64,000 bases of DNA from Nocardioidaceae bacterium (GTDB taxonomy: Bacteria; Actinomycetota; Actinomycetes; Propionibacteriales; Nocardioidaceae). Each line of letters starts with the position of its first letter. Within the stretch, counting starts at the first letter, position 1. A program made the translations under genes and the position numbers. Location: positions 62,001 through 126,000 of the forward strand of contig JAURVT010000002.1 in the NCBI GenBank assembly GCA_030655315.1, read 5' to 3'. Of the stretch, positions 50,559 to 63,374 are shown piece after piece. Under the pieces are notes generated by a model. The model was not told the DNA's origin. It did no database searches and saw only the letters and a list, made by a program, of their open reading frames with translations.

Positions 50559-50564
50559 GCCTCG

Positions 50565-50570
50565 AGCCTA
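50565..50570 (-). promoter_or_regulatory. -10 element TAGGCT of uvrB, leaderless spacing
   Basis: TAGGCT on the minus strand, then six bases, then ATG 50558. Confidence 0.5.
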
Positions 50571-50605
50571 CGACCGCCCGCCGACAGAAGCCGACCGGTC
50601 GTGCG

Positions 50606-52309
50606 TCAGCCGGTCTCGCGGGTGTTGGTGAGGTTGGCCTTGAGGCTGCTCGGGTCGGCGTTCCACTTCTGCGAGGTCGAGCCGGTGCACGTGCCCGTGA
50701 CGGCCTTGTAGTAGAAGCTGCTGTGCCGGTCCGACCGGGCCCCGAGCGACAGGCAGCGGCCCACGCTGTCCTTGATCGTGTACCGGTCCCCGTAGGCCAG
50801 CTCGGGGGTGTCGGGGCCGCCGGACTGGTACCGCTGGGCGACGGTCCACCCGAACTCGCCCACGGGCGTCGACGGGCAGGTGCTCGAGAGCACCGGGTAG
50901 CCGCCGGCGGTGAGGGGGCTGCGCAGGCAGTAGGTGGTGCCGTTCACGGTCGTGGTCAGCTTGGTCAGCGTCGGCCCCCGGTCCAGGGCGGGCGACGGGA
51001 CGAACCGCTGGTTCCAGCGCACCGCACCCAGGCGCGGGTTCTGCTTGCAGGTGTAGAGGATCAGGTAGGACGCGCTGACGTTCTGCCCGGTGACGTCGAG
51101 GCAGGTCGCGAACTGCGCGTAGTTCACGAGCTGCTCGTTGCCGGCGCCCGCCGCTCCCGCTCCCGCGGTGTCGGCGGGGACCCAGGTCTGGCGGCCATCG
51201 GTGGTGCCTCCCGCACATCCCTGCAGGAACAGGCCGGCTCCGGGCGCCGGGGCGTCGATGCACAGGCCGTTGACGTCGCCCTGGTCCATCCGCGACCCAC
51301 GCAGGTGGGCGTTGTCGTCGACGCTCCAGCGCTGGTGCCACGGCGAGTTCGCGCAGGAGCGGCCGGGGTTCTTCGACGCGTACTCGCCCGGCGTGGTGCC
51401 GGCCGGGCAGACCGACGTGGCCGTCTTGTCGCGCGGGTTCGGGTCGGCGACGCCGCACCGGTTCAGGACGAGGGGCTGTCCGGCCGCCTGGTCGGGCACG
51501 TCCGCGGCGAGGCTCGAGCTGTCGATGCACAGTCCGGGCCCGACCGGTTGGCCCGACACCGCGACGGCCGACGACACCAGCTCGATCGACAGGTCGCTGC
51601 GGTAGCTCCACACCTGCTTCTCGGGCGGCGGGGTGGAGTTGATGCACGGCTGCAGGGTGACGGCGGTGCCGACCGCGGGCGCGTCGCCGGCGTCCATGCA
51701 GCTGTCGGAGCCGTAGACGCGGATCTGCCCGCCGCTGATGTTCACGTCGTTGGTCTGGAAGTTGTAGACGGTCTCGACCCGGCGGCCCTTGGAGGCACCG
51801 CTGCCCGCGCGGGAGTTGTCGCGGCCGAACGAGACGATCAGGGCGAACTTGGGTGCCCGGCTGTTCGACGCACGGTCGAACGGGCCGCCACTGGAGGCGC
51901 AGATCATCTTCTGGGAGGCACGGGCGGCGTCGTCGAGGGCGGCGGGGTTGACCCGGTAGTAGGCCACCGACGCCGTGAAGGTGGACGTGTCGCTGGAGTC
52001 GGCCCTGACGTCGTCCCATCCTCCGCAGGGCAGGGCGCCGGCGTCGCCGAGGGTCGCGTCGTCGGCACTGACGGCGCTGCGGATCAGGGCGAGCACGTGG
52101 TCGATGCCGGCCTGGGCGGCGTCGAGGGAGTGGACGCGGGTCTCGTCGAACCGGGACGTGCTCGCCTGGCTGACCACGGTCGTCAGCAGCACGGCGCCGA
52201 GCGACGCGCAGACGATCATCACCAGCGCCAGGAAGGGTAGCGACCCGCGCTCGCGGTCGTCGCCGGTGAGTCGTCCGCGGACGACGGAGACCAGGGACCA
52301 GGACGTCAT
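50606..52309 (-). CDS. Pilus-associated protein with six ricin-type lectin repeats (PilX-like)
   Basis: This 567-residue protein has an N-terminal pilin-like or membrane helix at residues about 24-48 (SLPFLALVMIVCASLGAVLL) without a clear Gly-Phe cleavage site. From residue 195 there are six units of the pattern C-x-D...C...[QR]-x-W: SCMDAG/QVWSY, GLCIDSS/QRWSV, GLCIDAP/QTWVP, TCLDVTG/RWNQRF, YCLRS/FGWTV and RCLSLG/QKWNA. Three such units make one ricin B-type beta-trefoil, so two trefoils are likely. It would be a surface or pilus-tip lectin binding sugars. It is the last gene of the pil operon and overlaps the PilW-like gene (ATGA). Confidence 0.8.
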   Translation of the reverse strand: MTSWSLVSVVRGRLTGDDRERGSLPFLALVMIVCASLGAVLLTTVVSQASTSRFDETRVHSLDAAQAGIDHVLALIRSAVSADDATLGDAGALPCGGWDDVRADSSDTSTFTASVAYYRVNPAALDDAARASQKMICASSGGPFDRASNSRAPKFALIVSFGRDNSRAGSGASKGRRVETVYNFQTNDVNISGGQIRVYGSDSCMDAGDAPAVGTAVTLQPCINSTPPPEKQVWSYRSDLSIELVSSAVAVSGQPVGPGLCIDSSSLAADVPDQAAGQPLVLNRCGVADPNPRDKTATSVCPAGTTPGEYASKNPGRSCANSPWHQRWSVDDNAHLRGSRMDQGDVNGLCIDAPAPGAGLFLQGCAGGTTDGRQTWVPADTAGAGAAGAGNEQLVNYAQFATCLDVTGQNVSASYLILYTCKQNPRLGAVRWNQRFVPSPALDRGPTLTKLTTTVNGTTYCLRSPLTAGGYPVLSSTCPSTPVGEFGWTVAQRYQSGGPDTPELAYGDRYTIKDSVGRCLSLGARSDRHSSFYYKAVTGTCTGSTSQKWNADPSSLKANLTNTRETG

Positions 52310-52950
52310 GAGGGCTGCTCCACGGGGACCTGTTGGCACACGGACGACTCGGCACCGGCCGTGCTGTTGAGCGCGGTGAAGGTGGACGTCGCCCGGGTCG
52401 CGGACGGGGCGTTGGTCGGCCCGGCGGCCGTGAGGGTCGTGACCGTCAGGCGCTGGAACGCGCTGGGCGTGGCCGACGTCGGCGTGGAGAAGGGCTGGTC
52501 GGCCTCGCCCGCGGCCGCGCCGCCGTTGGTCACGCCCGACGCGAGGGGCTTCCACGACGTGAGCGACCCGGACGCGTGGGAGCTGCCGCTGACCACCCAC
52601 GTGCGCCGCTGCAGCTGTCCGTCCGACACCCGCAGCTGGGTGCACATCTCACGGGCCGTCCCGTCGCTCAGGTCGGCAGCCGCGTACTCGACGTGCCAGG
52701 TGCCGGCGGCGTTCGTCGACGGCGTCGAGATGCCGGTGGCGTACCGCACCGACCGGTCGAGCGCGAGGAAGACGCTGTTGGTCTGGTCCGCCGACTCCGC
52801 GACGCCCTGCACCTTGGAGGTGGTGCTCGTCATCTCGAAGATCGCGGCGGTGAAGATCGCCATGAAGATCGACAGCAGTCCCATGGCGACGACGAGCTCC
52901 ATCAGCGTGGTCCCGCGGTCGTCGCGCAGGTCGACCCGTCGGCCGGTCAC
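52306..52950 (-). CDS. Prepilin-type protein, PilW-like minor pilin
   Basis: This 214-residue prepilin has a short basic leader and the cleavage/methylation motif RGTTLMELVVAMGLLSIFMA near residues 13-32, which includes the conserved Glu at position 5 after the cleavage glycine. The globular part has two cysteines, one near the middle (EMCTQL) and one near the end (SVCQQV). It would be cut by PilD and join the pilus as a minor subunit. It overlaps the neighbours on both sides. Confidence 0.87.
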   Translation of the reverse strand: MTGRRVDLRDDRGTTLMELVVAMGLLSIFMAIFTAAIFEMTSTTSKVQGVAESADQTNSVFLALDRSVRYATGISTPSTNAAGTWHVEYAAADLSDGTAREMCTQLRVSDGQLQRRTWVVSGSSHASGSLTSWKPLASGVTNGGAAAGEADQPFSTPTSATPSAFQRLTVTTLTAAGPTNAPSATRATSTFTALNSTAGAESSVCQQVPVEQPS

Positions 52951-55193
52951 GGTTCCACCGTCAGCACGAAGTCGTCGGTGACGAAGGCACCGGCCTGGTC
53001 GGTCACGCGGGTGCCCACCGGGAACGTGCCGGTGGCCGAGGGCTTGCCCACCAGGGACGTGCCGTCGAAGCTCAGCCCGGGCGGCAGGTTGCCGAGGGTG
53101 GCGTAGGTGCGCGGGGTGGTGCCGCCAGCGGTGTAGGCGGACAGGTTGATGGCGATCTCGGTGCCGGCCTTGGCCGTCAGGTCCGGCACGTTGTGCACGA
53201 GGTCGGAGACGTACCAGGTGAAGGTCGGTGACGTGCTGCCGAAGCCGGAGGCGTCGACCGCCGTCACGGTCACGTCGGAGGTCACCGAGCTGGTGGTCGA
53301 GGCGGTGCCGCCCACCACGCCCGTGCGAGGGTCGATGGTCAGGCCCTTCGGCAGGTTGCTCGCCGAGTAGGTGAACGGTGCGGTGCCCCCGGTGACGAAG
53401 CCGTGCAGGTCGACCGACACGCCGGCACCGGAGCGGGACGTCCGGTTGCCCGGCGATCCGTAGGCGGGCTTCTCGTTCACGGTCCAGGTGAAGGTGGCGG
53501 TGCCGGTGGCCCCGGAGTCGTCCGTGGCGGTGACGGTCACCTGGTTGGAGGTGCTCGCGTTGGTGGCGACGGTGCCGACGAGCCGTCCGGTCGACTCCTC
53601 GATCGTGACGCCGTTGGGCTGCCCGGCGACGGTGTACCGGCAGGGCCCGTTCTGGCAGGTGGAGGTGACCGGGACGCTGACCGTGCCGCCCCGCGTGGTG
53701 GCCCGGTTGCCGGGCGAGGTGGCCGAGGGGGCCTCCACCACCTTGTACGTGATCTTGCGAGTCACCGGCTTCACGTCGGAGCGGGCGTCGGTGACGGTGA
53801 TCGTGACGGTGTAGGTGCCGGTCGCCGTCGGCGTGCCGCGGATCTCACCGGTCTTGGGCCCGACGTTGACGATGGACGTGCCGCCGGGGAGCCCGGTCGC
53901 GCTGAACGTGTAGGAGTCGGACCCGCCGCTGGCGGTCACGGTGACCGTGTCCGGCTTGCCCACGGTGGTCACCTGGGCACCGGGGTCGGAGACCGCGATG
54001 GGCGGGTAGGCGATGGTCCAGCTGAAGGTGGTCGACGCGGTGCGTCGTCCGCTGCTGTCGGTCACGGTGATCTTGACCGGGTAGGTGCCGGGCTTGGTGG
54101 GCGTGCCGGTGACCTGGCCGCCCGTCGACACGGTGAGGCCCGGAGGCAGGCCCGTGCCCGTGTAGGCGTACGGCGCGCCGGACCCGCCGCTGGCCGACAG
54201 CGTGACCGGCGCGATGGCCTGGCCCTGGATGCCCGCCTGGCTGTTGACCGGTGCGAGGAGGAGCCGGGGGAACGCGTTCCAGCGGATGGTGGCCACGGCG
54301 GTCCGCGTGAACGCGTCGGTCACGGTGACGGTCGAGGTGTAGGTGGCGGTGGAGCCGCCCACCGTCCCGCTCACCGTGCCGGCCGGCGACAGCGACAGAC
54401 CGGTCGGCAGCGTCCCCGAGGTCAGCGTCCAGCTGAACGGCGCGACGCCCTTGCCGGTCTGGACCTTCAGCTGCAGGTCGACCGCGTCGCCGACGGTGAC
54501 CTCCTGGTCACCGGGCGCGACGATCACCGGCGCCGGCGGCAGCGGCTGGTTGAGGTCGAAGGTGGGGTTGGGGTGGGTGTCAATCAGGCTGGACGTGACG
54601 AACGCGCACGTCCCGTTCGGGCAGCCGCGCGCCGGCCAGGTCACGGCGACGACGGCGCGGACGGCGTTGCCGGCCGAGGTGCAGGTGTTGCTGGTGCCGA
54701 TCGACGTCGCGTCGTCACGGCACTCGAGGTACTGGTAGACGCGGAAGGGCTGGGCCTGCGGGGTCTGCTGCACCGACGCCGTCGGCACGACGGCCGCCGT
54801 CGCCGAGCCGTCGTAGGCGAGCTTGGCGGGGTCCGAGCTGATCCACCGCGCCACCTTGGGGATGGCGGCCAGCTCGTTGCGCTGGGCGGTGACGTCGACG
54901 AGCCGGCGACCGGTGAGCAGGTTGCTCGGGTCGATCGCGCGAAGCTCGGACATCGCGGTGCTCGCGAGCTGGGAGGCCGCGACGCTGGACCGCTGGTGGC
55001 TCGAGACCACGACCGCGTTGACGTACTCCATGCTGACCGCCGCCATGATCACCGTGATGAGGGTGAGCGCGATCATCACCTCGAGCAGGATGAAGCCGCC
55101 CTCGTCGTCGCCCCGCGCCTGACGACCCCGCGCGAGACGCAGCGCCGCCCGGCGCCGGAGGCGCTCGGACACGGGTGCGTCGTGGGTCGGCAT
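52947..55193 (-). CDS. Giant prepilin with six Ig-like repeats (adhesin-like minor pilin)
   Basis: This 748-residue protein begins as a type IV prepilin (EGGFILLEVMIALTLITVIM near residues 30-50), with a globular pilin-like part to about residue 215. It then carries six putative Ig (He_PIG-like) repeats of about 80-95 residues, each with a core like GLPPGLTVSTGGQVTGTP followed by YPVKITVTDSSG. Such repeats usually extend adhesins. As an outsized pilin it would project from the fibre or cap it. ATG at 55193 is 31 codons before the cleavage site. A 34-base gap separates it from pilO. Confidence 0.85.
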   Translation of the reverse strand: MPTHDAPVSERLRRRAALRLARGRQARGDDEGGFILLEVMIALTLITVIMAAVSMEYVNAVVVSSHQRSSVAASQLASTAMSELRAIDPSNLLTGRRLVDVTAQRNELAAIPKVARWISSDPAKLAYDGSATAAVVPTASVQQTPQAQPFRVYQYLECRDDATSIGTSNTCTSAGNAVRAVVAVTWPARGCPNGTCAFVTSSLIDTHPNPTFDLNQPLPPAPVIVAPGDQEVTVGDAVDLQLKVQTGKGVAPFSWTLTSGTLPTGLSLSPAGTVSGTVGGSTATYTSTVTVTDAFTRTAVATIRWNAFPRLLLAPVNSQAGIQGQAIAPVTLSASGGSGAPYAYTGTGLPPGLTVSTGGQVTGTPTKPGTYPVKITVTDSSGRRTASTTFSWTIAYPPIAVSDPGAQVTTVGKPDTVTVTASGGSDSYTFSATGLPGGTSIVNVGPKTGEIRGTPTATGTYTVTITVTDARSDVKPVTRKITYKVVEAPSATSPGNRATTRGGTVSVPVTSTCQNGPCRYTVAGQPNGVTIEESTGRLVGTVATNASTSNQVTVTATDDSGATGTATFTWTVNEKPAYGSPGNRTSRSGAGVSVDLHGFVTGGTAPFTYSASNLPKGLTIDPRTGVVGGTASTTSSVTSDVTVTAVDASGFGSTSPTFTWYVSDLVHNVPDLTAKAGTEIAINLSAYTAGGTTPRTYATLGNLPPGLSFDGTSLVGKPSATGTFPVGTRVTDQAGAFVTDDFVLTVEP

Positions 55194-55227: not shown

Positions 55228-55836
55228 TCAGGAGCCGGTGAAGATGGTGACCTGGGCGGTCATCGACGAGGCCGCGTCGACCGATGCCACCGCGGACTCC
55301 TCGGACGTCGTCACCTGCGACGACGTGACCAGCACGCGTCGCTCGCCGTCCTGCAGCGCCCGCAGGAACGCCGTCTGCTGGGCGAGCCGACCGGTCGAGG
55401 TCACCGACACGGCGATCGCCTGCTGCGCGGGGGCGGCCGCGGCGGTGCCGTCCGCGGCTGCGGCTGCGGCCGCCACCCCCACCGGGGCCGGCGGGCTGAC
55501 CGACACCGTCGTCAGCGACACCCCTGCCACCGACGCCGCGGCCGTGACCTGGTTGGTGAACTCGGGCAGGGCGGTGGTCACGGGGAGGCCGGCCTTCGCG
55601 TCGGCGAGGCCCGCCTGGAGGGACGAGATCTGCTTGTCCTGCTCGGCGAGCTGCGAGTTCTTGCGCTGGAGCGTCACGTTCTGCAGCTCGGCGTCGGCCT
55701 GCTGCGTCGCCGACTCGTCCGCGGCCGACAGCTGCGGCGACACCAGGAGGAACCAGGTCGCGAGGACGATCAGCACCGCGAGGAGCGCGCCGCCGCCGAT
55801 CAGCACGCGGCGGTCGTCGAGGGCCGAGGTCTTCAT
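55228..55836 (-). CDS. pilO: Type IV pilus assembly protein PilO-like
   Basis: This 202-residue bitopic protein has one membrane helix at residues about 12-31 (LIGGGALLAVLIVLATWFLL), then a coiled-coil (QNVTLQRKNSQLAEQDKQIS near residue 55) and a ferredoxin-like C-terminal domain with an Ala-rich insertion near residue 125. It pairs with PilN in the inner-membrane alignment complex. It overlaps pilN by four bases. Confidence 0.85.
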   Translation of the reverse strand: MKTSALDDRRVLIGGGALLAVLIVLATWFLLVSPQLSAADESATQQADAELQNVTLQRKNSQLAEQDKQISSLQAGLADAKAGLPVTTALPEFTNQVTAAASVAGVSLTTVSVSPPAPVGVAAAAAAADGTAAAAPAQQAIAVSVTSTGRLAQQTAFLRALQDGERRVLVTSSQVTTSEESAVASVDAASSMTAQVTIFTGS

Positions 55837-56552
55837 GACTGTCCTCCGTCGGACGGCGCGTCGAGGTCGTAGCGGTGCGTGTGCAGCGCGTCGGTGATGC
55901 CGAGCGTCACCGTCCAGGTGGTGGCACCCGCCTCGCCCTTCGCGTTCGACGCCGGCAGCACGTTGGCCACCCCGTCGATGCCCGCGAGGTCGGTGGCGTA
56001 CCCGGCCAGGTCCGAGAGCTGCTGCGCCGACCCGGTCAAGGTGACGGTGCCGATGGGAGTCGACCCGGGCTCGGCCGCGGGGTCGGTGGCCGCGACGGGA
56101 GGGGCCGCGGCGTCGGTCGCCGACGTGAGCGTGACGTTGAGGGCGGTGAGCGACATGGTGCCGGGCAGCGTGCCGCGGAGCTCGGTGACGAGGGTGGCGA
56201 CGTCGACGTCGGTCGCCATCAGCTGTGCGACCTGGGCATCGACCGCGCGGGTGTCGGCCTGCACCTTGACGACGTCGTCGTACTGGCCCTGCGCGGCCAT
56301 CAGCTCGTCGGTGGCAGCCTGGGTCGAGGCGAGCGAGTCCTCGGCGGTGGTGGCCTGGAGCGTCGCGAAGGCGAAGCCCGCGACGCACACCAGCACGATG
56401 GCAGCCAGGCCGACCACGAGACGCTTGCGAATGGCACGGACCTGCCGACCCTCGATCACCTCGGGCGGGGTCAGGTCGGCGGCGAGTCCCCAGGCGGGCA
56501 TGGTGCTGCCCCAGTCGGCGGGCTCGACCGGAGGGGTGAGGACGGCGGTCAT
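55833..56552 (-). CDS. pilN: Type IV pilus assembly protein PilN-like
   Basis: This 239-residue protein has an N-terminal cytosolic tail, a helix at residues about 46-66 (VVGLAAIVLVCVAGFAFATL) and a C-terminal domain with VTLTGSAQQLSDLAGYATDL, as in PilN proteins. The tail would bind PilM. ATG at 56552 overlaps the pilM stop. A longer upstream frame is a shadow of pilM. Confidence 0.85.
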   Translation of the reverse strand: MTAVLTPPVEPADWGSTMPAWGLAADLTPPEVIEGRQVRAIRKRLVVGLAAIVLVCVAGFAFATLQATTAEDSLASTQAATDELMAAQGQYDDVVKVQADTRAVDAQVAQLMATDVDVATLVTELRGTLPGTMSLTALNVTLTSATDAAAPPVAATDPAAEPGSTPIGTVTLTGSAQQLSDLAGYATDLAGIDGVANVLPASNAKGEAGATTWTVTLGITDALHTHRYDLDAPSDGGQS

Positions 56553-57628
56553 GCGGCTGCTCCCATCGCGAGACCCAGCGACACCGCCGACGGCGGTGCG
56601 AAGGTCGCGTCCGGCGCCGACGGGGCGTCGTCGCGGTTGCTGACGTGCTGGAGCGGGTCGACCAGGCGCGTGGGCAAGTCGACCTGGTCCTCGATGGCCT
56701 TGACGATGCCGCCCAGGCGGGCTCCCCCACCGGTCAGCGACACCCGCTCGATCACCGCACCCTCGTGGGCGGAGCGGAAGTAGGCCAGCGACGTGCGGAT
56801 CTCGGCGACCAGGGGTCGGACTCCCTGGATCAGCGCCCGGCTGATCTCGGCGTGGTCCGAGTCCAGGCCCGACTCGCACTTCAGCGCCTCGGCCTCGATC
56901 TGCTCGATGCCCATCCGGTCGGCCAGCTGCTGCGTCAGCTCGTCACCGCCGCGGGCCAGGGTCCGCACCAGCTGGGGCACGCCGCGGTCGTGCACGACGA
57001 TCGTGGTGAGGTGCGCGCCCAGGTCGATCACGGCCTCGACGGCCAGGTGCTGCGCGCCGATCGCGCGGAGCGTCGCGAAGGACGCGAGGTCGACGCGAGC
57101 GACCCGCAGCCCGGCCCGCTCCACCGCGGCGACGGCGGCGAGCACGGGCTCGCGGGGCGTCGCGATGAGGAGGCCGTCGACCATGTCGGTCTCGGGGTCC
57201 GGCTCACCGAGCTGGCAGTAGTCGAGCACCACCTGGTCGATGGGCAGCGCCACGACGTCCTTCGCCTGGTACGGCAGCGCCTTGGCGCGCCGGGCCGGGT
57301 CGAGGTTGGGCATGCGCAGGTCGCGCACCAGCGACTGCTGGTTGGCGACGCCGAGCACCACGTTGCGGCAGTGGAAGCGGTTCTCGGCCCATAGCTGCTT
57401 GATCGCCTCGGTGACGACGTCGGCGTCGTGGATGACGCCCTCCTTGACCGCGTCGCGGGGCAGCGGCACCTGGCCGGCGCCCTCCACCGCCACGGTGGGG
57501 CGTCCCCCGAGGGTGCCCGGGCTGAGGATCGCGGCCCGGACCCCGGTGGCGCCGATGTCGAGTCCGATGGCGTGGCCGTCGGGGTTGAGCACGCCCACGC
57601 GGTTCCGCGGCAGGTGACGGTGCTTCAT
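56549..57628 (-). CDS. pilM: Type IV pilus assembly protein PilM (actin-like ATPase)
   Basis: This 359-residue FtsA/actin-like protein has the phosphate-binding loop AIGLDIGATGVRAAIL near residue 20, VIDLGAHLTTIVVHDRG near residue 210 and VSLTGGGARLGGIVKA near residue 305. It is cytosolic and links PilN to the motor side. It follows pilD by 14 bases and is the second gene of the pilD-M-N-O unit. Confidence 0.92.
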   Translation of the reverse strand: MKHRHLPRNRVGVLNPDGHAIGLDIGATGVRAAILSPGTLGGRPTVAVEGAGQVPLPRDAVKEGVIHDADVVTEAIKQLWAENRFHCRNVVLGVANQQSLVRDLRMPNLDPARRAKALPYQAKDVVALPIDQVVLDYCQLGEPDPETDMVDGLLIATPREPVLAAVAAVERAGLRVARVDLASFATLRAIGAQHLAVEAVIDLGAHLTTIVVHDRGVPQLVRTLARGGDELTQQLADRMGIEQIEAEALKCESGLDSDHAEISRALIQGVRPLVAEIRTSLAYFRSAHEGAVIERVSLTGGGARLGGIVKAIEDQVDLPTRLVDPLQHVSNRDDAPSAPDATFAPPSAVSLGLAMGAAA

Positions 57629-57642
57629 GGTGGGCTCCAGGC

Positions 57643-58434
57643 TCAGCTGAGGTGGGTGAGGTTCAGGTACGCGTCGGAGACCGCGCCACCGACGAAGAAG
57701 GCGACGAGGGCCCCGACGACGAGCGCCGGGCCGAACGGCAGCAGCGACCGGCGCCCGGCGCGGCGCGCGACGATCAGCACCGCTCCGGCGAGCGTGCCGA
57801 GCAGGAAGGCCGCGAAGAGGCCGACGACGACCACCGGGTAGGAGACGTAGCCGAGCACGGCGCCGATGACGACGGCGAGCTTGACGTCACCGAGCCCCAT
57901 CCCGCCGGGCTTGGCGACGGCGAGCGCGAGGAAGAGCGCGCCGAGCACGGTGCCGGCGACGACGGCCCGGAGGAGCGCCTCGACCTCGCCGGTGAAGGCG
58001 GTGGCTGCGACGAAGCCGGCGAGCACGAGCGCGAGGGTGGGGTAGACGATCACGTTCGGCAGGCGCATGACGTCGAGGTCGATCGCGGCGAGCGCGACGC
58101 CGGCCGCGACGAAGACGAGGAACGCGGGCAGCGCGGGCAGCAGGTCCAGACGCGCGGCCTGCCAGGTGGTGGCGACGAACAGCACCCCGGTAACCAGCTC
58201 GACGAGCGGGTACCGGACGCTGATCGGCGCCGTGCAGTCGGCGCAGCGGCCGCGCAGCACGAGCCAACCCAGCACCGGCACGTTGTGCCGGGTGCGGATG
58301 GCCGCGTCGCAGGCCGGGCAGCGCGACGCGGGGTGCACGATCGACAGGCCGGCGGGAACCCGGTGGATCACGACGTTGAGGAAGGACCCGACGGCCAGGC
58401 CGAGGAGGCCGACGGCGGTGAGCAGGATCGGCAC
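57643..58434 (-). CDS. pilD: Prepilin peptidase PilD (A24 family)
   Basis: This 263-residue membrane protein removes prepilin leaders and methylates the new N-terminus. The cytosolic zinc-type loop has CPACDAAIR and CADCTAPI near residues 39-75. The catalytic aspartates are in AIDLDVMRLPN near residue 117 and GLGDVKLAVV near residue 177. It lies downstream of pilA but behind a strong hairpin, so it may be expressed from read-through or its own promoter. Confidence 0.93.
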   Translation of the reverse strand: MPILLTAVGLLGLAVGSFLNVVIHRVPAGLSIVHPASRCPACDAAIRTRHNVPVLGWLVLRGRCADCTAPISVRYPLVELVTGVLFVATTWQAARLDLLPALPAFLVFVAAGVALAAIDLDVMRLPNVIVYPTLALVLAGFVAATAFTGEVEALLRAVVAGTVLGALFLALAVAKPGGMGLGDVKLAVVIGAVLGYVSYPVVVVGLFAAFLLGTLAGAVLIVARRAGRRSLLPFGPALVVGALVAFFVGGAVSDAYLNLTHLS

Positions 58435-58543: not shown

Positions 58544-58990
58544 TCAGCAGGCGTTGGTGTTGGCGACGGTCTTGATGGAACCGCCGTTCGTGCTGACGTA
58601 GCAGTAGAACTTGCTCGCCGAGCCCTTCGAGTTGGTCGACCACAGCGAGTAGTTCGCGGGGGTGGTTCCCGTGGCGGGCTTGTAGGTGAAAGCGGTGCCG
58701 CTGCTGAGCGTGACCTTGCCGGTGGTGCAACCGGTCGTCGCGCCGGCCGTCGTGATGGCGGTCGGGTAAGCGCCGTTGTCGGCCATGCACTGCTCGAGGG
58801 CGCTGACGGCACCGCGCAGGTCGGACTGGGCGGCCTTGTCGTTGGCGCCCTTCTGGTAGTTCAGGTACAGCGGGACGGCGATCGCGGTCAGGATGCCGAT
58901 GATGACGACGACCACGAGCAGCTCGATCAGCGTGAAACCGCCCTCGCCGTTCTCCTGGTCCCGCCGGTGCCGGGCAATGGTGTTGATCAT
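58544..58990 (-). CDS. pilA: Major type IV pilin PilA
   Basis: This 148-residue prepilin has a leader of 18 residues ending in EGG, cut before Phe19. The mature start FTLIELLVVVVIIGILTAIA has Glu at position 5. The mature protein is about 130 residues with four cysteines (QCMADN, GCTTGK, FYCYV and the C-terminal Cys), which probably form two disulfides. GGAGGG precedes ATG 58990. It stands alone between two terminators, as expected for a highly expressed major subunit. Confidence 0.93.
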   Translation of the reverse strand: MINTIARHRRDQENGEGGFTLIELLVVVVIIGILTAIAVPLYLNYQKGANDKAAQSDLRGAVSALEQCMADNGAYPTAITTAGATTGCTTGKVTLSSGTAFTYKPATGTTPANYSLWSTNSKGSASKFYCYVSTNGGSIKTVANTNAC

Positions 58991-59192: not shown

Positions 59193-60425
59193 TCAGTTGG
59201 TCTGGATGTTGCCGAACACCGAGAACATCGGCAGGTAGAGACAGATGACCATGCCGCCGATGACCACGCCGAGGAACACCACGAGCAGCGGCTCCATGGC
59301 CGACGAGAGCGACTCCGTCGCGGTCTCGACCTCCCTCTCGTAGTACTCGGCCACCTTCTCGAGCATGTCGGTGATCTGGCCGGTCTCTTCGCCCACCTCG
59401 AGCATCTGCACCACCATCGAGGGGAACAGCTCGTGCTTCTGCAGCGCCGACGACATCTGCCCGCCCACCCGGACCTGGTCGCGGACGTCGTCCATCGCCC
59501 GGCTGATCAGGGCGTTGCCCGACGTGCCGCCGACCACCTCGAGCGCCTGGATCACCGGGACGCCCACGGCCAGCAGCGTGCCGAGGTTGCGCGACCAGCG
59601 GCTGATGGCGAGCTTGGTGAGCAGCGGGCCGAAGACCGGCAGCTTCACCTTGCGCTGGTCGACGCGGTAGCGGAACTCCTCGCTGGTCTGCAGCCCCCTG
59701 CGGTAGGCCTTGAGGGCGACCAGGAAGACGACGACCAGCAGCGGGCCGGCCCACGGGATGTTGTCCGACAGTCCGACCATGATCCTGGTGGGCAGCGGCA
59801 GCTCGCTGCCGAGCTGGGTGAACATCTTCTCGAAGACCGGGACGATGAACAGGATCACGCCGGTGCCGAGGATCATCGAGAAGATCAGCACGATCACCGG
59901 GTAGGTCATCGCCGACTTGATCTTGGCGCGCAGCTCGGCGTCGGCCTCGAACATCGTCGCGATCCGCGACAGCGCCTCGTCGAGGAAGCCGCCGGTCTCG
60001 CCCGCCTTGATCATGTTGATCATCAGCAGCGGGAACTGGTTCGGGTGCTTGGACATCGCCGCCGACAGCGGCGCGCCGCCCTGCACGTCGTTCTTGACCG
60101 CGGCGACGGCCTCCTTGAGCTGGGGCTTGGGCGTCTGCTCCTCGAGGATCGCCAGCGAGCGCAGCAGCGTGAGTCCCGAGGAGGTCATCGAGGCGAACTG
60201 GCGGGAGAACACCGCGAGGTCGCGCAGGCTCGTCCGCCCGCCGAGGCCAGGGATCTTGATCTCGGTGTTCAGGCCGGTGCCGAGACCGGCGATCTCGAGC
60301 GGCACGAGGCGCTGGTTCGACAGCGCGCGCGACGCGGCGTCGGACGAGTCGGCCTCGATCTTGCCCTTGACGACGGCGCCCGCGGCGTCGATCGCCTCGT
60401 AGGAGAACGTCTTGGTGGCGCTCAC
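59193..60425 (-). CDS. pilC: Type IV pilus platform protein PilC (type II secretion F family)
   Basis: This 410-residue inner-membrane platform has two T2SF domains (residues about 75-195 and 275-400), each ending in a membrane helix. Typical stretches are LAVFSRQFASMTSSGLTLLR near residue 67 and MVVQMLEVGEETGQITDMLE near residue 340. It is turned by PilB and PilT. ATG overlaps the pilT stop (ATGA). Confidence 0.93.
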   Translation of the reverse strand: MSATKTFSYEAIDAAGAVVKGKIEADSSDAASRALSNQRLVPLEIAGLGTGLNTEIKIPGLGGRTSLRDLAVFSRQFASMTSSGLTLLRSLAILEEQTPKPQLKEAVAAVKNDVQGGAPLSAAMSKHPNQFPLLMINMIKAGETGGFLDEALSRIATMFEADAELRAKIKSAMTYPVIVLIFSMILGTGVILFIVPVFEKMFTQLGSELPLPTRIMVGLSDNIPWAGPLLVVVFLVALKAYRRGLQTSEEFRYRVDQRKVKLPVFGPLLTKLAISRWSRNLGTLLAVGVPVIQALEVVGGTSGNALISRAMDDVRDQVRVGGQMSSALQKHELFPSMVVQMLEVGEETGQITDMLEKVAEYYEREVETATESLSSAMEPLLVVFLGVVIGGMVICLYLPMFSVFGNIQTN

Positions 60426-61564
60426 GAGATCCTCGCCAGGCGCTTGAACTCGTTCGGGTCGTGCGCCAGCTCGAGGGCGGTGCCCGTGCTGATCAGCTGC
60501 TCGGCGTGCCGCTGGGCGAGGTGCTGGTCGAAGCTGATCATGCCGACGTCGGCGCCCGACTGCAGGAACGTCGGGATCTGGTGCACCTTGCCCTCACGGA
60601 TCAGGTTCCGGATCGCGGCGGTGGCCACCATGATCTCGCAGACGGTGGTGCGACCCTTGCCGTCCTTGGTGGGGGCGAGGGCCTGGGTGATCACGCCCTG
60701 CAGGCAGTTGGCCAGCTGCGCCCGGATCTGCGACTGCTGGTGCGCGGGGAAGATGTCGATCAGCCGGTCGATCGTCTGCGCGGCCGACTGCGTGTGCAGC
60801 GTGGCGAGCACGAGGTGGCCCGTCTCGGCGGCGGTGACGGCCGTGGCCGTCGTCTCGAGGTCGCGGAGCTCGCCGACCAAGATGATGTCGGGGTCCTGTC
60901 GCAGCACGTGCTTGAGCGCGGTCGGGAAGTCCTCGGTGTCGGCCCCCACCTCGCGCTGGTTCACGACGCTGCGGCCGTGGGTGTGCAGGTACTCGATCGG
61001 GTCCTCGATCGTCATGATGTGCGCCGCGCGGGTCTGGTTGGCGACGTCCAGCAGGCTCGCGAGCGTCGTCGACTTGCCCGAGCCGGTCGGTCCGGTGACG
61101 AGCACCAGGCCGCGGGGCAGGTGCGCGAAGCGCTCGACGTCGTCCGGCAGCCCGAGCTCGGTGAGCGGCCGGATGCGGTGCGGGATCGTGCGCAGCACGG
61201 CACCGACGGCACCCCGCTGCACGAAGACGTTGACGCGGAACCGGCTCAGGCCCTCGAGGGAGTAGGACGTGTCCAGCTCCTGGTCGCGGTCGAACCGGGC
61301 CCAGGACTCCGGCGGGAGGATCGACTGCATCATGGCCTGGGTGTCGCTGGGCGTCAGCTTGGCGACGTCCTCGATCGGACGCAGCGAGCCGTGGACGCGG
61401 ATGCAGGGCGCGATGCCGGCGGTGAGGTGCAGGTCCGAGCCACCGCGCTCGACCGTCATCTGGAGCAGGCGCTGGATCGTGGCCCGGGGGTCACCGACCA
61501 CCGAGTCCGGCGTCGGCGGACGACCGAAGCCCGTCGACTCGGCGTCGTGGATGGTGGCGGTCAT
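60422..61564 (-). CDS. pilT: Pilus retraction ATPase PilT
   Basis: This 380-residue hexameric ATPase drives pilus disassembly. Walker A GPTGSGKSTTLASLL lies near residue 155, the Asp box and Walker B are in DPDIILVGELRD near residue 220, and the His box is in GHLVLATLHTQSA. The PilT-specific AIRNLIREGKVHQI lies near residue 335. Its presence predicts retractable pili and hence twitching or DNA uptake. It lies 24 bases after pilB. Confidence 0.94.
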   Translation of the reverse strand: MTATIHDAESTGFGRPPTPDSVVGDPRATIQRLLQMTVERGGSDLHLTAGIAPCIRVHGSLRPIEDVAKLTPSDTQAMMQSILPPESWARFDRDQELDTSYSLEGLSRFRVNVFVQRGAVGAVLRTIPHRIRPLTELGLPDDVERFAHLPRGLVLVTGPTGSGKSTTLASLLDVANQTRAAHIMTIEDPIEYLHTHGRSVVNQREVGADTEDFPTALKHVLRQDPDIILVGELRDLETTATAVTAAETGHLVLATLHTQSAAQTIDRLIDIFPAHQQSQIRAQLANCLQGVITQALAPTKDGKGRTTVCEIMVATAAIRNLIREGKVHQIPTFLQSGADVGMISFDQHLAQRHAEQLISTGTALELAHDPNEFKRLARIS

Positions 61565-61588: not shown

Positions 61589-63253
61589 TCAGACGGTGAC
61601 ACGGAAGACCTCCTCGACGGTGGTCTCGCCCACGGCGGCCTTCATCAGGCCATCGAGGCGGAGGGGGACCATCCCCTCCTCGACCGCGACGTGGTGGATC
61701 TCGGACGAGGACGCGCGACGGACGGCGAGCCGCTCGACCTCCTCGGTCACCGGCATCACCTCGTTCACGGCGATCCGGGCGCGGTAGCCGGTCTGGCCGC
61801 ACGAACGGCAGCCGACCGGACGCCACAGCTTCTCCGGCGGCTCGAGCTCGTCGGGCCAGCCCAGCTGCACGGCGTCGTGCTCGGTGACCGCGTACGGCTC
61901 CTTGCACCAGTCGCAGAGCCGGCGGGCGAGCCGCTGGGCGAGCACGCAGTCCACCGAGGAGCCGACCAGGAAGGGCTCGACGCCCATCTCGGTGAGGCGT
62001 GTGACGGCCGACGGCGCGTCGTTGGTGTGCAGGGTCGAGAGCACGAGGTGGCCGGTGAGGGCGGCCTCGATGCCGAGCTGGGCGGTGGCGGGGTCGCGGA
62101 TCTCGCCGATCAGGACGACGTCGGGGTCCGACCGCAGGATCGCGGGCAGCACGGCGGCGAACGTCAGACCCGCCTTGGCATTGACCTGTACCTGGTTGAC
62201 GCCGGCCAGTCGGTACTCGACCGGGTCCTCGACGGTGATGATGTTGACCGAGGGGTTGCTGATCTCGGACAGCGTCGCGTAGAGCGTCGTGGACTTGCCC
62301 GACCCCGTCGGCCCGGTGACGAGCACCATGCCGTGCGGCTTGCCGAAGGACGTCGCGAACCGTGCGTAGTTGGCCTCGGAGAAGCCGAGCTTGCGCAGCT
62401 CGAGGTCGATGCCGCCGGTGTCGAGCACGCGGAGGACGACCTTCTCGCCCCACACCGTCGGCAGCGTGGCGACGCGCAGGTCGACCTTCTTGTTGTTCAG
62501 GCGCACCGTGATGCGGCCGTTCTGCGGGACGCGCTTCTCGGTGATGTCGACGCTCGCCATGATCTTCAGGCGGGAGATGAGGGGGCCCTGGACGGCCGCG
62601 GGGACGCTGTCGACGTCGTGCAGGACGCCGTCGATGCGGAACCGGACGCGCAGCTCGCCCTCGGTGGGCTCGATGTGGAGGTCGGACGCACGGCTCTGGA
62701 TGGCCTGCTCGATGAGCGAGTTGACGTAGCGGACGACGGGCGCGTCCTCGCCGTCGGGCACCACCGCGGTCATCGTGGTCTCGGCCTCGACGAAGGAGGC
62801 GGCGATGTCGGCGAGGTCGGTCTGCTCGCGCTTGATGCGGTCGATCAGCCGGCGGAGCTCGCTGCGTGCGCCCACGACGGGCACGACGCGCAGGCCGGTC
62901 GCAGCCCGGATGTCGTCGAGCGCCACGACGTCCTCGGGGTCGGAGATGGCCACGACGAGAGCTGGTCCGGACCACCCGATGCCGAGCACCCGGTGCCGCG
63001 TCACGAGCTGGAGCGGGATCTTGCCCATGGCCTCGGCGTCGAGCGGGTAGCCGACGAGGTCCACGCTGTTGAGCCCGTTGGCCTCGGCCGACGCCTCAGT
63101 CAGCTCCATCTCGGTGATGATGTTGTCGTTGACGAGGACGTCGCGGATCGACCGGTCGCTGCGCTCGCACTCCTCGGCGGCCTCGGCCAGGGCGTGGGCG
63201 TCGATGCCACGGTCGGCGAGGGCGTCGAGCAGGGGTCGGTACGAGGGGATCAT
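61589..63253 (-). CDS. pilB: Pilus extension ATPase PilB
   Basis: This 554-residue assembly ATPase has an N-terminal MshE/T2SSE-N domain (residues about 20-140) and Walker A GPTGSGKSTTLYATL near residue 310. Walker B is in VVLIGEIRDPATA near residue 375, and a four-cysteine zinc site in LCDWCKEPY and GCRSCGQTGY near residues 440-480. ATG at 63253 is preferred to the in-frame GTG six bases earlier because AAGGAGG is then six bases away. It is the first gene of pilB-T-C. Confidence 0.95.
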   Translation of the reverse strand: MIPSYRPLLDALADRGIDAHALAEAAEECERSDRSIRDVLVNDNIITEMELTEASAEANGLNSVDLVGYPLDAEAMGKIPLQLVTRHRVLGIGWSGPALVVAISDPEDVVALDDIRAATGLRVVPVVGARSELRRLIDRIKREQTDLADIAASFVEAETTMTAVVPDGEDAPVVRYVNSLIEQAIQSRASDLHIEPTEGELRVRFRIDGVLHDVDSVPAAVQGPLISRLKIMASVDITEKRVPQNGRITVRLNNKKVDLRVATLPTVWGEKVVLRVLDTGGIDLELRKLGFSEANYARFATSFGKPHGMVLVTGPTGSGKSTTLYATLSEISNPSVNIITVEDPVEYRLAGVNQVQVNAKAGLTFAAVLPAILRSDPDVVLIGEIRDPATAQLGIEAALTGHLVLSTLHTNDAPSAVTRLTEMGVEPFLVGSSVDCVLAQRLARRLCDWCKEPYAVTEHDAVQLGWPDELEPPEKLWRPVGCRSCGQTGYRARIAVNEVMPVTEEVERLAVRRASSSEIHHVAVEEGMVPLRLDGLMKAAVGETTVEEVFRVTV

Positions 63254-63374
63254 CGCCACCCTCCTTCATCACGTGGGCCGCGGCACCGGTCGCCGTCGGA
63301 AGAGCCTTGTACGTCCGACATCGGCAGTGCCCCCCACGACCTGAGGATTCGGGCCACATCGACCCCAAGGGGCC

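Follow-up and report, generated by a model that had tools for sequence, protein, structure and literature searches.

We propose, with a probability of about 0.7, that the gene closing the pilus operon in the 64,000-nucleotide stretch of actinobacterial DNA analyzed here (the window) encodes a K-type (PilX/GspK) minor pilin joined to two ricin-type beta-trefoils, that the two parts were fused once and early in the actinobacteria, and that the product, which we call LEC, caps the pilus and binds glycans. Its organization is that of a modular pilin, with an N-terminal pilin module, the fold of which is likely, and a functional module of nonpilus type. An earlier note on this DNA had proposed that a lectin is built into an actinobacterial type IV pilus, and this proposal is well supported by sequence, by operon position, and by conservation over about 100 species.

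The earlier note placed the gene correctly at positions 50606 to 52309, and it lies on the minus strand. LEC is the last gene of a complete type IVa pilus operon, with PilB-PilT-PilC-PilA-PilD-PilM-PilN-PilO-PilV-PilW upstream on the same strand (Table 1). The identities of PilB, PilT, PilC, and uvrB are those that we take from their sequences and established knowledge; the other genes were named through Pfam or by position. The stop codon of PilW and the start codon of LEC share the tetranucleotide ATGA, an overlap of 4 bp, and PilV and PilW also overlap by 4 bp. Downstream of LEC, on the same strand, uvrB starts 47 bp past the LEC stop codon (gap, 50559 to 50605). Scans of the pil operon for promoters and terminators returned nothing usable, and read-through from the pilus operon into uvrB is possible across this 47-bp gap, in which no terminator was detected. 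A separate observation concerns PilA (58544 to 58990), which the model for the DNA-uptake receptor ComP matched below its cut-off (E, 4.5e-4), a hint of DNA uptake.

Table 1. Positions in the window of the pil genes and of the parts of LEC
Feature	Position	Strand	Basis or remark
LEC, 567 aa + stop	50606..52309	(-)	K-type minor pilin with two ricin-type beta-trefoils (proposed)
LEC prepilin-type (class III) leader, residues 1-22	52244..52309	(-)	predicted cleavage RERG/SLPFL, +5 = Leu
LEC pilin module, residues 23-190, helix 23-77 then beta-sheet	51740..52243	(-)	AF2 model
LEC first beta-trefoil, ~residues 190-379, repeats 1-3	51173..51742	(-)	AF2 model and structural match
LEC second beta-trefoil, ~residues 386-556, repeats 4-6	50642..51154	(-)	AF2 model and structural match
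LEC repeat 4, residues 393-440, D405/Y419/N433/Q434	50990..51133	(-)	sole repeat with conserved putative sugar pocket
PilW-type (J) minor pilin	52306..52950	(-)	4-bp overlap with LEC
PilV-type (I) minor pilin, 748 aa, six He_PIG Ig-like repeats	52947..55193	(-)	Pfam N_methyl and PF05345
PilO-like	55228..55830	(-)	weak Pfam matches PilO, T2SSM_b
PilN-like	55833..56552	(-)	position and size
PilM	56549..57628	(-)	PF11104, E 3e-46
PilD prepilin peptidase	57643..58434	(-)	PF06750 and PF01478
PilA major pilin	58544..58990	(-)	N_methyl
PilC platform protein	59193..60425	(-)	recognized from sequence
PilT retraction ATPase	60422..61564	(-)	recognized from sequence
PilB extension ATPase	61589..63259	(-)	recognized from sequence

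Two stretches of LEC were matched by the Pfam family Ricin_B_lectin (PF00652; E = 1.1e-14) with a score of 55.2 bits, the cut-off being 29, and the domain was present in all 15 proteins of our first alignment. LEC is the sole ricin-B protein of its 4.18-Mb genome, and none of 14 control genomes contained a match. An artefact or chance motif is ruled out by an E value of 1e-14 together with the conserved architecture and position. The full-length AlphaFold2 model of LEC (15 sequences; mean pLDDT, 71) has the strand pattern of two trefoils. In comparisons made with Foldseek and VIA-align 2, the stretch from ~190 to 379 superimposed over 121 residues on a Streptomyces CBM13 with an rmsd of 1.6 (Z, 18.9). 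Residues 185 to 552 were placed on tandem-trefoil lectins (Z, ~17.5), where an rmsd of ~15 over both domains implies that the relative placement of the two trefoils differs or is uncertain. The PDB sequences yielded no match to LEC alone but did match in profile searches. The two beta-trefoils expected by the earlier note are thus predicted and match solved trefoil lectins; a fold free of trefoils, for which we checked, was not predicted. The same note had read six C-x-D...C...Q-x-W units, and six Cys...Cys repeats are indeed present, but the motif is strict in repeats 1 to 3 only: repeat 4 has Q-R-F, the Asp is missing from repeats 5 and 6, and repeat 5 is without the Gln as well, leaving C-x-D in four of the six and two degenerate. 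Repeat 2 contains an insertion (residues 286 to 326; 51332 to 51454) with two extra Cys residues that is longer than in the aligned relatives. The closest solved fold to the first trefoil is the CBM13 of Streptomyces xylanases (1knm and 5gqe; 25 to 27% identity), which is the sugar-binding appendage of an enzyme, whereas the first trefoil of LEC sits on a pilin and is without the conserved pocket residues.

The other half of LEC starts with a prepilin-type leader. Its context is RERG/SLPFLALVMIVCASL, with the Gly ahead of a hydrophobic stretch, and the N-terminus reads RERG/SLPFLALVMIVCASLGAVLL. Of 84 relatives with a recognizable leader, 73 have Gly at -1 and not one has Glu at +5; the 11 without Gly at -1 mostly reflect our choice of start codon. 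Glu5 is present in the other three pilins of the window, PilA (FTLIE), PilV (FILLE), and PilW (TTLME). The subunit known to lack Glu5 is K, which caps the tip complex (PMC9934059, PMC7541494). LEC had no match to Pfam N_methyl, TIGR02532, or PilX_N (PF14341); a match to the first two is not to be expected of a pilin without Glu5, and PilX_N matched 7 of 71 LEC relatives weakly (best E, 0.0082).

An AF2 model of residues 1 to 192 (71 sequences; mean pLDDT, 85.5) contains a 55-residue helix at residues 23 to 77 and, after it, strands at 109 to 118, 155 to 164, and 176 to 183. The single N-terminal helix described in the earlier note is therefore there, but the description was incomplete, as residues 23 to 190 are predicted to form a helix and a beta-sheet. 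The best VIA-align 2 match of the pilin-module model was chain T of the XcpGHIJK pseudopilus (9a1f; 295 residues), with a Z of 6.7 against the tool's caution line of 8 (rmsd, 3.7; 139 residues) and with residue 22 of the module aligned to residue 1 of the chain; from its length, we take chain T to be the K subunit XcpX. The pilin 1dzo gave a Z of 3.4 with the same program. Foldseek found no pilin with the pilin-module model (best E, 0.86), and the pilin-module profile had no match among PDB sequences. Because a pseudopilus chain was returned by VIA-align 2 only, we call the modeled pilin fold likely and not proven.

To define the extent of the family, 84,980 species genomes were scanned with one degenerate peptide, [MLF]Ix[WY][PF]CK[QH][AND]P, and 108 of the 112 stretches that it retrieved were LEC relatives. 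The best 80 of these 108 are all actinobacterial, and their carriers include Actinoplanes, Paractinoplanes, Dactylosporangium, Virgisporangium, Planobispora, Planomonospora, Cellulomonas, Cellulosimicrobium, Sanguibacter, Demequina, Kineococcus, Leifsonia, Microbacterium, Nocardioides, and Aeromicrobium. Many of the carriers belong to genera known for motile spores or motile cells (Actinoplanes, Dactylosporangium, Planobispora, Planomonospora, and Kineococcus). The family profile matched all of the best 80, and the uncut proteins among them span the N-terminal module through the last repeat. Other pil genes were found at 79 of these 80 loci, the exception being cut by a contig end, and several Actinoplanes species carry the gene within the pil locus. 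A PilW-type gene lies directly upstream of LEC at 75 of the 80, and at 62 of those 75 the first LEC start codon overlaps the PilW stop codon by exactly 4 bp, so that the coupling to a minor pilin gene pointed out in the earlier note is a recurrent trait of the family. A PilV-type gene accompanies 59 relatives, and in 41 of these its Ig part was recognizable.

Queried with the one protein, the 395 genomes of the class yielded relatives in 14 besides the window's own, and the family yielded one. PilM is present in 84 of the 395 class genomes, including all 15 that carry the lectin. One PilM-bearing genome contains a ricin-part match with an in-frame TGA (G496:C16:35543-35950), possibly a decayed or misassembled copy. 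A search across 346 genomes of the phylum, with four candidates scored per genome, matched only the window's own genome, and no phage relatives of LEC were found. Pairwise distances in the pilin half and in the lectin half are correlated (r = 0.86; Mantel, 0/999 permutations), and this correlated divergence argues for one old fusion that has been inherited as a unit. A recent fusion specific to the window is ruled out by the 88 distinct aligned sequences and the codiverging halves.

The operon slot that LEC occupies is not restricted to lectins. A profile search of other PilM-bearing genomes returned mostly N-terminal matches, and the pil loci in 20 regions fetched on such matches (L156-L175) encode PilX-type proteins that are ~395 to 795 residues long. 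Two of these same-slot homologues of the N-terminal module reach the PilX_N cut-off. Pfam detected a ricin domain in none of the 19 same-slot PilX-type proteins scanned, and few C-terminal domains were recognized in them, from which it follows that the slot is constant and the outer module variable. The long C-terminal parts of these proteins are possible further types of adhesin.

Within the lectin half, conservation is concentrated in one repeat. In an alignment of 88 proteins, each of the four putative pocket positions of repeat 4 (Asp405, Trp/Tyr419, Asn433, and Gln/His434) is kept in 87, and the other five repeats lack the full set. Repeat 4 is also the most conserved part of LEC (mean column entropy, 1.51 bits, versus 1.91 to 2.38 for the other repeats), and the peptide that the scan tool picked as most conserved falls within it. 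Profile alignment to a solved galactose-type lectin repeat pairs the same pocket residues, with per-domain scores that are weak. Judged from its lectin family, LEC most likely binds glycans through repeat 4. That one site has stayed constant across genera of diverse ecology speaks for a common ligand and not for a host-specific receptor; the ligand is thus probably widespread, either a polysaccharide of plants or microbes or a self glycan, and not peculiar to a strain or host. The earlier note had envisaged sugar-specific attachment. A predicted pocket in one repeat is in keeping with sugar binding, but the case for specificity is weaker than that phrase suggests, with the pocket confined to one of six repeats and near-invariant over the family.

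The same near-invariance, in genera of different habitats, would also suit a ligand common to all of them in another sense: LEC could be a K-type minor pilin with trefoils that serve assembly or anchoring, repeat 4 holding a self glycan of the cell wall, capsule, exopolysaccharide, or glycosylated pilin and acting as a brake, as a cork, or in movement on the colony matrix. PilT is present, and the lectin-free state of the same slot elsewhere means that the lectin is dispensable for assembly in general and that its ligand may be lineage specific and internal. However, tip subunits of known type IVa pili face outward, and holding on to a self ligand might block extension; we regard this alternative as unlikely, although it is the strongest of those considered. 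Distinctly less probable is a DNA-uptake pilus whose trefoils have lost sugar binding and serve some other role, such as binding to a DNA-associated matrix. The weak match of PilA to the ComP model and the loss of the pocket from five of six repeats fit such a role, but a sugar-blind fold would have no need of the four repeat-4 positions that the family has preserved.

LEC as a pilus-capping minor pilin is best compared with the K subunits. Like LEC, PilX of the Pseudomonas and Myxococcus type IVa pili and GspK or XcpX of type II secretion lack Glu5, are encoded by the final minor-pilin gene, and have a long helix and a small sheet, which in LEC are predicted; they are the proposed tip cap (PMC7541494, PMC9934059). 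GspK differs in having an alpha-domain inserted in the sheet, and diderm PilX differs in being free of lectin and in presenting an adhesin, PilY1, that is a protein of its own; LEC, for its part, falls short of the PilX_N model. PilY1, the diderm tip adhesin that is carried by PilX, is reportedly absent from monoderms (PMC9934059); our search of 16 genomes found no PilY1 homologue, but the control was equally silent, so this result does not argue for absence. Since the known K subunits are free of lectins, the tip position that we consider probable for LEC is drawn by analogy. The least probable alternative is that LEC is a membrane-anchored surface lectin, coexpressed with the pilus and not assembled into it, which would agree with the unmatched Pfam pilin models but is at odds with the prepilin-type cleavage context, the 55-residue helix and sheet, the PilX operon slot, the N-terminal similarity to same-slot proteins at the PilX_N cut-off, and the conserved 4-bp coupling to PilW.

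A lectin on a pilin has a precedent in another monoderm. In the modular minor pilin PilC of Streptococcus sanguinis, one module is a lectin (PMC9934059); as is predicted for LEC, a glycan-binding module comes after the pilin module, and PilC is likewise placed in a predicted tip complex and belongs to a monoderm type IVa pilus. In the S. sanguinis protein the lectin is of the concanavalin A-like kind and is accompanied by an Ig module, whereas LEC bears two ricin-type trefoils and places its lectin on a Glu5-less K-type subunit beside PilV- and PilW-type pilins. With Ig repeats on PilV and trefoils on LEC, two subunits of the tip complex may be enlarged, a situation also found in S. sanguinis. 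Modular pilins are widespread according to a survey (PMC8179133), and LEC follows the same cut-and-paste principle. The survey's list includes modular pilins of Actinoplanes and the PF05345 Ig type seen in the window's PilV, and the 15 architectures that its text names do not include ricin-type trefoils. The survey required the IPR012902/N_methyl motif, which LEC lacks, so LEC would have been passed over.

The observations support a model in which PilD would cleave LEC after Gly22 and a PilV-PilW-LEC complex would prime pilus assembly, leaving LEC, bulky and without Glu5, at the tip. There the repeat-4 pocket would hold a glycan common in the environment or on neighboring cells, and retraction by PilT would pull on the LEC-glycan bond, giving adhesion and perhaps twitching. 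PilD cleavage, priming by minor pilins, the tip position of the K subunit, and PilT retraction are carried over from established work on type IVa pili. Relatives in more than 100 genomes, with the same operon position in the cases examined closely, make it probable that actinobacterial pili with LEC attach to surfaces by holding a sugar.

Full-text searches found no description of ricin-type or trefoil domains on pilins or on actinobacterial pili, a paper on Actinoplanes zoospore pili being outside their reach. The earlier note's remark that no actinobacterial pilus lectin of this form had been described fits the searchable literature, in which ricin-type trefoils on the K-type subunit of an actinobacterial type IVa pilus appear to be undescribed. 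Actinobacterial type IVa pili have barely been studied; a 2019 review stated that the actinobacterial pili studied until then were all of type c (PMC6916266), and zoospores of Actinoplanes missouriensis adhere to hydrophobic surfaces by type IV pili, according to work cited in PMC8325347.

The chances are about even that actinobacterial type IVa pili have a tip kind of their own, in which the K-type pilin is the adhesin, one ancient lineage bearing a double lectin of ricin type whose only sugar site is conserved across the class and other lineages bearing unrelated large C-terminal modules. If so, the K subunit itself would do in actinobacteria the job that falls to the separate PilY1 in diderms. 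The LEC family provides actinobacterial type IVa pili with a probable adhesin, for which a single candidate binding site can be put forward. Its culturable carriers include Actinoplanes, Cellulomonas, Planobispora, and Demequina, and which component of these pili sticks, and to what, becomes testable.
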